From Rubrivivax sp. (GTDB lineage: Bacteria; Pseudomonadota; Gammaproteobacteria; Burkholderiales; Burkholderiaceae_C), in NCBI GenBank assembly GCA_027484825.1, contig JAIXSE010000032.1:62001-126000 (forward strand): a stretch of DNA of 64,000 nucleotides, in the 5' to 3' direction. Shown piece by piece: positions 25,894 to 60,742 of this stretch. The position numbers and the translations under genes were made by a program. The notes below the pieces were generated by a model. That model saw nothing but the letters and a program-made list of their open reading frames with translations, was not told the DNA's origin and did no database searches. The first letter of the stretch is position 1. Every line of letters begins with the position of its first letter.

Positions 25894-25998
25894 GCCTCAC
25901 GCTGTCATCTCCGGCAAGGCCTGCCAAGGTCTTGGACGGTCATGCGAGCGGCATGGCGCGACGATGTGGCGCCGTGCCTGGTGGCAACGCTCGATGCC

Positions 25999-26096
25999 GG
26001 AAGGTGCAGGGGCGGGTGCCTTTTGCGGAAGTCAAGGAGGAGGAGCCGAAGGCGACGGGGGACATGTAGCAAAAGGTGCCCGCCCCTGCGCCTTCC
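25999..26096. repeat. Structured hairpin element, copy 1
   Basis: Left arm 25999-26026 and right arm 26069-26096 pair over 28 bases with three G-T(U) wobbles and no true mismatch. They close a 42-base core: GGAAGTCAAGGAGGAG at 26027-26042, an inner hairpin GCC-GAA-GGC, then GGGGGACATG. A second copy with the same core and a different stem lies at 60651-60742. Both lie between convergent genes in the same orientation on this strand. The core carries several GGA triplets and an AAGGAGG sequence. Candidates are a structured RNA or a dispersed structured repeat. Confidence 0.75.
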
Positions 26097-26147
26097 AGCG
26101 CAGTCAGAGGACAGCTCCCGCGCCTTCCAGCGCAGTCAGCGGACAGC
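26088..26147. repeat. Two 28-bp direct repeats, period 32
   Basis: The sequence beginning GCGCCTTCCAGCGCAGTCAG at 26088-26115 recurs at 26120-26147 with one difference in 28 bases. The first copy overlaps the right arm of the hairpin element. This stretch, with the rest of 25894-26179, carries no gene; it separates the converging phosphatase and RND genes. Confidence 0.8.
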
Positions 26148-26179
26148 CCCCGCCCCCACTGCCCCCGCGACCCCGAAGG

Positions 26180-60478: not shown

Positions 60479-60650
60479 ACCGAGCCCTGGGCTTTGGGCC
60501 ATGCGCCATGCGCTGTTGCATCCAATGGGGATGCAAGCTGGGCCGGTCCGTTCTGGAGGCCGGGCCATTGAAGTCGGACTCTTGCCGTGCTGCGGCGTGG
60601 TCATCTGCGGCGGTCGTGGCCCACCCCACATCGAAGCAGTGCTCGGTGCT

Positions 60651-60742
60651 GAAACAGGGAGGGGCAGGCTTCTGCGGAAGTCAAGGAGGAGACCGCGAAG
60701 CGGGCGGGGGACATGAAGCAGAAGCCTGCCCCTCCCTGTTTC
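60651..60742. repeat. Structured hairpin element, copy 2
   Basis: Arms 60651-60675 and 60718-60742 (GAAACAGGGAGG... with its complement) pair perfectly over 25 bases. The 42-base core begins GGAAGTCAAGGAGGAG, has an inner hairpin CCGC-GAA-GCGG and ends GGGGGACATGAA. The core length and 28 of its 42 bases in flanks are the same as in copy 1 at 25999-26096, while both stems are different in sequence yet still complementary. It follows nagX and faces the receptor gene. Confidence 0.78.

Follow-up and report, generated by a model that had tools for sequence, protein, structure and literature searches.

Our analysis leads us to favor, as the probable explanation, that two structured sites in the window (the 64,000-nt stretch of DNA analysed here) belong to a single dispersed palindromic repeat. 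This is very likely the Betaproteobacterial repeat element (BRE), and it would be a non-autonomous and probably selfish element whose folded + strand is recognised by a protein. A preliminary description had picked out these two sites; the observation is real and is the tip of a family. The arms of the repeat vary widely in sequence yet stay paired around a conserved core. At a given site related species may have or lack a copy; copies lie singly, in tandem or head-to-head, and are tolerated in either orientation, even in a gene. The source genome is 5.66 Mb long and is labelled G000; other genomes carry G### labels and individual loci L### labels.

Anatomy of the two copies and spread of the family

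The features of the two copies, in window positions, are as follows.

25990..25996, + strand: copy 1, CTCGATG, counterpart of the CTCGGTG box found upstream of some stems
25999..26026, + strand: copy 1, 5′ arm of the outer stem (pairing reaches weakly to 25996)
26027..26068, + strand: copy 1, conserved 42-nt core, a purine-rich internal loop with an inner hairpin
26030..26030, + strand: copy 1, R of the covarying R-Y pair (partner 26065)
26038..26038, + strand: copy 1, p of the covarying A-G/G-A pair (partner q at 26059)
26045..26053, + strand: copy 1, inner hairpin GCC-GAA-GGC
26069..26096, + strand: copy 1, 3′ arm of the outer stem
60642..60648, + strand: copy 2, CTCGGTG box upstream of the stem
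60651..60675, + strand: copy 2, 5′ arm of the outer stem
60676..60717, + strand: copy 2, conserved 42-nt core
60679..60679, + strand: copy 2, R of the R-Y pair (partner 60714)
60687..60687, + strand: copy 2, p of the A-G/G-A pair (partner q at 60708)
60693..60703, + strand: copy 2, inner hairpin CCGC-GAA-GCGG
60718..60742, + strand: copy 2, 3′ arm of the outer stem

As first described, both cores are 42 nt long, start with GGAAGTCAAGGAGGAG and contain GGGGGACATG, both inner hairpins read as given above, and both cores are closed by paired stems: copy 2 is complementary at 25 of 25 positions and copy 1 over 31 nt at 87%, the RNA fold accepting its G-U pairs, three of which lie among the inner 24 pairs. 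Folded as RNA, the + strands reach -67.9 kcal/mol (z -8.32) for copy 1 and -64.8 kcal/mol (z -9.08) for copy 2, and both beat all shuffles (200 per copy). The other strand of copy 1 folds 11.5 kcal/mol worse (-56.4), its G-U pairs turning into A-C there. The exact two-part core occurs at 4 sites in the whole genome, with 0 for a reversed control pattern, and in 4 of 40 searched genomes including its own, all of one genus. Just 3′ of copy 1, a stretch of about 31 nt (GCGCCTTCCAGCGCAGTCAG...) is tandemly repeated at window positions 26086-26150, the 3′ end of the stem included.

A covariance model (R1) built from 9 copies matches at least 44 copies in this genome and lists 1-46 per genome in 16 of the 16 genomes of the genus, numbers that are lower bounds because only the best 150 candidates per genome were scored. 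A second model (R2), built from 62 matches (60 distinct) and applied at E <= 1e-4, matches at least 111 of 250 genomes of the family, in 74 of 141 genera, among the best 17 candidates of each genome. In a phylum-wide draw, scored on the best 10 candidates of each, at least 11 of 398 genomes match, 7 of them from the same family and 4 from one other family of the class; a genome with no match may still carry weak copies. Read by eye, the core is present in 29 of 29 loci taken from the family-wide matches and in 14 of 14 from the phylum-wide draw, where the ends are altered in some. A scan of named genomes for the pattern gave, among the matches listed (80 rows), Burkholderiales (Rhodoferax ferrireducens isolates, Hydrogenophaga, Ideonella, Roseateles, Rhizobacter, Methylibium, Ramlibacter and others) together with two Luteimonas species; a Roseateles violae record holds a core match.

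Copies of this genome fall mainly into classes of 89-91 and 97 nt, and those of congeners also into 99-105 nt; many of the matches listed are 86-91 nt long with 24-bp arms, and classes from 80 to 122 nt are listed as well. GC content is 0.57-0.76 across the 62 matches, the stem measures 24-33 bp in 77 of 83 copies of the genus, and the core is 36-57 nt long, purine-rich and provided with an inner hairpin.

Searched against Rfam, the window and 20 copy-bearing loci gave 0 matches at the gathering threshold. At a permissive threshold copy 2 gave 29, which are almost entirely hairpins of the microRNA type and none of which attains its gathering score; these were set aside. A plasmid search and a phage search returned no match, both being weak searches since the arms vary (the plasmid search used a single 92-nt query). 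Two further candidates were rejected: a hidden autonomous element carrying a gene in its loop, as a half-core pattern has 5 sites in G000, all at full copies that the model lists, and a G-quadruplex built from GG-N-GG tracts, as part of the 97-nt class is without four such tracts by eye.

Covariation in the stem and in the core

Compensatory change in the stem, proposed from two copies, extends well beyond them. In an alignment of 9 copies both partners vary at 26 of 29 pairs, and covariation scores 0.885, compared with 0.235 after shuffling; for 60 distinct rows the score is 0.918 against 0.201, with slid registers at 0.119-0.207, the 60-row alignment having been fitted to the structure and the 9-copy alignment not. 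The mismatches identify the strand. In 217 distinct stems of 22 pairs each (loci L307-L376 excluded) we counted 287 G-U, 22 A-C and 102 other mismatches, and in stems of the genus 81, 1 and 16, with a mild bias toward G-U from the element finder, which treats G-U as paired (cut 12, or 15, of 20) and misses some copies seen by other means (L408 and the copy beside the RAYT gene of G011). Mutation alone would be expected to produce about as many G-T as A-C mismatches, so an excess of this size means that pairing of the + strand matters. Selection thus clearly acts on the single-stranded fold of the + strand, and with the number of copies this strand-specific covariation strongly supports the structured dispersed repeat that the preliminary description had offered as one of its readings.

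These counts bear on the idea that the arms are a neutral palindrome, in which template-switch correction at the replication fork would keep the arms similar and the fold would not be under selection. Perfect arms, in-place inversion and core exchange could all be traces of snap-back synthesis. However, such a process predicts near-equal G-T and A-C, contrary to both sets of counts, and leaves unexplained the covariation at the R-Y and p-q positions of the core, which lie outside the arms. We regard this idea as very improbable.

The covariation in the core was read from 127 distinct cores that fit a fixed pattern. The R-Y pair (R28-Y63), where the pattern allows only A/G at R and C/T at Y, is G-C in 71 cores, A-U in 55, G-U in 1 and A-C in 0. 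At p36 and q57 the letters are A,G in 108, G,A in 18 and C,G in 1, and never A,A or G,G; 67 distinct 40-nt cores divide into 58 with A,G and 9 with G,A. When cores at most 4 sites apart are compared within this set of 67, p never differs alone and neither does q, whereas p and q differ jointly in many comparisons, which are non-independent events. The p-q positions thus look like a non-canonical A-G pair under constraint. Pairing next to R-Y is not universal, and some genera are excepted: in L441, L442, L443 and L449, R is followed by an A that faces a C which has not changed.

The constraint on p and q also touches the alternative that the element serves the host as a cis-regulatory or sponge RNA, whether a 3′-UTR element, a CsrA/RsmA sponge or a ribosome decoy. 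The core is indeed conserved and rich in GGA, as such a role would favor. Its GGA-rich letters had been described as exposed and unpaired; the conservation holds, but the exposure is not so simple, for two such conserved purine positions covary with each other. The AAGGAGG motif had been read as an anti-Shine-Dalgarno match: the letters are as reported, and the motif is Shine-Dalgarno-like and would pair with the anti-Shine-Dalgarno sequence.

Placement among genes and change at orthologous sites

Both window copies lie between convergent genes, as had been anticipated, but across the genome this holds for only 12 of 40 distinct copies. With genes called by a home-made caller, the flanks of these 40, relative to the element, are ++ in 13, +- in 12, -- in 10 and -+ in 4, and 1 copy lies inside a called gene, so that 39 of 40 are outside called genes; divergent gaps are under-used, holding 4 of 40 copies although they make up 18 of 81 gaps. 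The 27 copies of G003 are -- in 10, ++ in 8, +- in 6 and -+ in 1, with 2 at an edge, and the 14 of G204 are +- in 6, -- in 3, ++ in 3 and -+ in 2. In G247, 6 of 12 copies fall inside called genes, possibly miscalled given few training loci. No orientation to genes is required. Among 29 distinct pairs of close neighbours, 21 are head-to-head, 8 tandem and 0 tail-to-tail.

A transcription terminator or barrier between convergent genes might have been suspected from the position of the window copies and their long GC-rich stems. The minority of copies so placed argues against it, as does the lack of a terminator-like site (a GC stem followed by a T run) at either window stem, and a separate site of this kind follows the TonB-receptor gene beside copy 2. 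We consider this role extremely improbable.

In other genera, copies recur within particular operons, whose genes were named from the starts of their proteins. All 13 loci in the pccB-pccA gap are antisense to the operon; in the gap of a lig-type operon 4 are antisense and 1 is sense (5 distinct loci), and between enoyl-CoA hydratase and biotin carboxylase genes 2 are antisense and 1 is sense. In several Burkholderiales (L118, L161, L222, L407-L412), the repeat forms an insertion of about 30 codons that stays in frame in mpl, in a variable-length protein loop between FGVSARLG and FVIEADEYD. In 9 distinct mpl genes the repeat is antisense in 6 and sense in 3, and among the mpl loci of 30 relatives 6 have it, 23 do not and 1 is unreadable.

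The recurring pcc and lig positions could also mean a host function, and they speak for the host RNA set out above. So does a copy of BRE in Bordetella: in the accessible text of Hot et al. 2011 it gives an RNA, bprJ, of 70-80 nt on Northern blots, opposite to both neighbours (PMC3110155), and an available part of a second paper lists bprJ among four small RNAs with changed level in an RNase III mutant (PMC8386462). Against it stand the mixed orientation to genes, the antisense direction of the pccB-pccA copies and of most lig copies, the occurrence inside mpl in both orientations, and a listed copy number that ranges from 1 to 46 within the genus. As a rule for the family the 3′-UTR element is not supported, since gene orientation is mixed across the 40 copies and often antisense elsewhere, even though both window copies sit between convergent genes. 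A host RNA of any of these kinds is in our judgment unlikely.

Upstream of the stem, at 60 nt or less, CTCGGTG occurs in 22 of 83 copies of the genus against 0.5 expected from shuffles, mostly 7-16 nt away. It is perhaps a target-site mark, or insertion may duplicate it. The possibility that the recurring box belongs to a promoter of the repeat was rejected, as neither window copy has a sigma-70-like site. Short tandem runs of GCAGTCCTCGGTGCA-like units were seen in the flanks of some copies (L250, L261, L289, L305).

Sites held in common by related genomes show how copies change. At least 19 copies are common to G000 and G003 at the same sites, so movement is slow. In 19 such pairs, 456 stem positions comprise 405 that are the same, 31 double changes that are compensated, 14 changed via G-U and 6 broken; 10 of the 31 double changes come from one locus, L260/L288, where an arm may have been converted. 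In the cores of L024/L008, the four differing letters are exactly the R-Y and p-q pairs, and in one copy at L259/L289 the two differing letters are exactly p and q. Loci found twice (L100/L274, L125/L237, L109/L412 and L122/L407) were each counted once.

At particular loci the core is exchanged for another subtype within arms that are kept. At the site of copy 1, G003 has nearly the same arms around another core subtype, and L250/L287 have nearly identical arms with cores of different length class (49 and 42 nt). Sites are also found empty: G001 and G012 have the gene pair of copy 1 without a copy, and for copy 2, which is present in G003, G001 has both genes with 147 nt between matches instead of 350 and no copy found there. 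In a single well-resolved case, L407/L408 of one genus, the core has flipped in place, the arms being 88 and 90% identical and the cores 95% identical only when one is reversed. Separately, L300 (G003:C1:663000-670200) holds three tandem copies with a 146-nt period, differing core subtypes and nearly the same arms.

We envision a scenario in which the folded + strand is the form that a cellular protein recognises, either as an RNA of about 80 nt, as for bprJ of Bordetella, or as single-stranded DNA at replication forks. Recognition of this kind would require of the arms only that they pair and of the core that it keep the geometry of its internal loop. Core swaps and flips could then arise when copies, or the two arms of a copy, undergo conversion or template switching with each other, and the repeat would be non-autonomous and probably selfish, in a long truce with its hosts. 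More tentatively, and rather doubtfully, the conserved purine core of about 42 nt, with its covarying A-G pair, may be a cassette that is flipped and exchanged inside co-evolving, locus-specific arms, with the flip acting as a possible slow, heritable operon switch. Flipping such a cassette would change the flanking transcript on which the active strand is found.

Mobility and relation to known repeats

REP/REPIN-type elements offer another comparison: the repeat could be moved as single-stranded DNA by a resident, single-copy Y1 transposase (RAYT, TnpA-REP). G000 has a single PF01797 match, and a copy (C18:85713-85809) ends 68 nt upstream of it (protein match from 85878); in G003 and G011 a copy likewise adjoins the RAYT gene, and the preponderance of head-to-head over tail-to-tail neighbours is that of BIMEs. 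However, a RAYT homologue is found in 237 of the 250 family genomes, far more than the at least 111 with listed copies, whereas G222, a genome 93% complete, has 6 listed copies and no RAYT homologue that we found. A copy lies at 2 of 20 Y1 loci by model R2 and at 2 of 20 fetched loci by the element finder, G000 being in both sets. Four RAYTs of the genus (G000, G001, G012, G006) read RSIELNP where a YIELNP-type motif is expected, judging from the accessible text on RAYT classes (PMC6006769). The catalytic tyrosine thus looks to have been replaced by serine, which would leave the enzyme inactive in the genus. We found no active cognate Y1 transposase flanked by copies: adjacency occurs in three congeners, and presence of the gene is not tied to that of the repeat. 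The resident RAYT is presumably of the subclass 2.1 type. RAYTs of that subclass have been reported without REPs, in the part of the source available (PMC6006769). Movement by the resident RAYT is, on this evidence, quite unlikely.

The RAYT of G000 itself (C18:85878-86576, L347), whose motif change is shared by three congeners, is probably an inactive domesticated transposase that has long been kept. Elsewhere, G046 has 20 matches to Y1 transposases, of which several are identical to one another and others are split by frame, and no listed copy of the repeat. At 178 loci, no shared mobility gene could be recognised by eye as a transposase in the 14 largest protein clusters near copies, which look like ordinary host genes; matches above 93% identity were left out of the clusters.

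The repeat resembles REP, BIME and REPIN elements in being short, palindromic and mostly intergenic, in its head-to-head pairs and, in three congeners, in lying next to a Y1 gene present once per genome. REPs are 21-65 nt long, and their hairpin has a GT[AG]G foot at its base, as given in the text consulted (PMC6006769). Here, in contrast, the conserved part is enclosed by a long stem whose sequence varies, the RAYT of the genus seems to have lost its catalytic activity, and no such foot lies at the base of a short hairpin; the conserved GNAR sits inside the long stem. The accessible portions of two REP papers hold 0 occurrences of Burkholderiales genus names (PMC3733652, PMC2817692).

Other dispersed hairpins are instructive by description. 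The repeat is reminiscent in part of the Rickettsia palindromic elements (RPE), hairpin-forming repeats that lie between genes and in frame inside protein genes, since it too is found between genes and in frame inside a conserved protein gene, mpl (9 distinct genes); compared by description, it differs in its bacteria and in having a conserved centre with variable arms. NEMIS/Correia and ERIC, small dispersed hairpin repeats suspected of processing by RNase III, have conserved ends, unlike the conserved centre and variable arms seen here.

The closest counterpart is BRE. The repeat had gone unrecognised in the preliminary description; it has no Rfam match at threshold, as stated above, but a very similar repeat was described in 2011. 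In the accessible text of Hot et al. (PMC3110155), BRE is a repeat of about 90 bp in Bordetella, Polaromonas, Delftia, Acidovorax and Rhodoferax, with up to 29 copies; it is chromosomal and mostly intergenic, with some copies wholly in genes and some in tandem, and in Bordetella it measures 75-91 bp with a GC content of 63.7-78.9%. Published coordinates include NC_002929 3605317-3605401, a Bordetella copy, and 2208359-2208448. The repeat studied here is likewise about 90 bp, GC-rich, chromosomal and mostly intergenic (39 of 40 copies in G000), sometimes within genes (mpl) and sometimes in tandem (8 pairs). BRE is distributed over Comamonadaceae and Bordetella. Among the matches listed here, many copies come from Betaproteobacteria, including Rhodoferax and other Comamonadaceae; some matches fall outside the published ranges of length and GC. 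Partial BRE matches of 40-60 bp (PMC3110155, in the text available) are what would be expected if only the core were conserved. Likened by description rather than by aligned letters, the repeat is very probably BRE.

The family is thus very probably already named. The accessible text of the 2011 report describes no stem, core, covariation, functional strand, inversion or core swap (PMC3110155), we found no further paper on the repeat in the open-licence literature, and for the core pairs, core swapping and in-place flip we found no earlier report in the text consulted.

If the repeat is BRE, an element known since 2011 from sequence similarity gains an anatomy: a defined strand, two covarying helices and a covarying non-canonical pair. 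Its orthologous loci show compensation, core exchange and one inversion, which makes the mechanism testable. The analysis also shows many near-perfect hairpins in the genomes of Burkholderiales to be one family instead of unrelated terminators.
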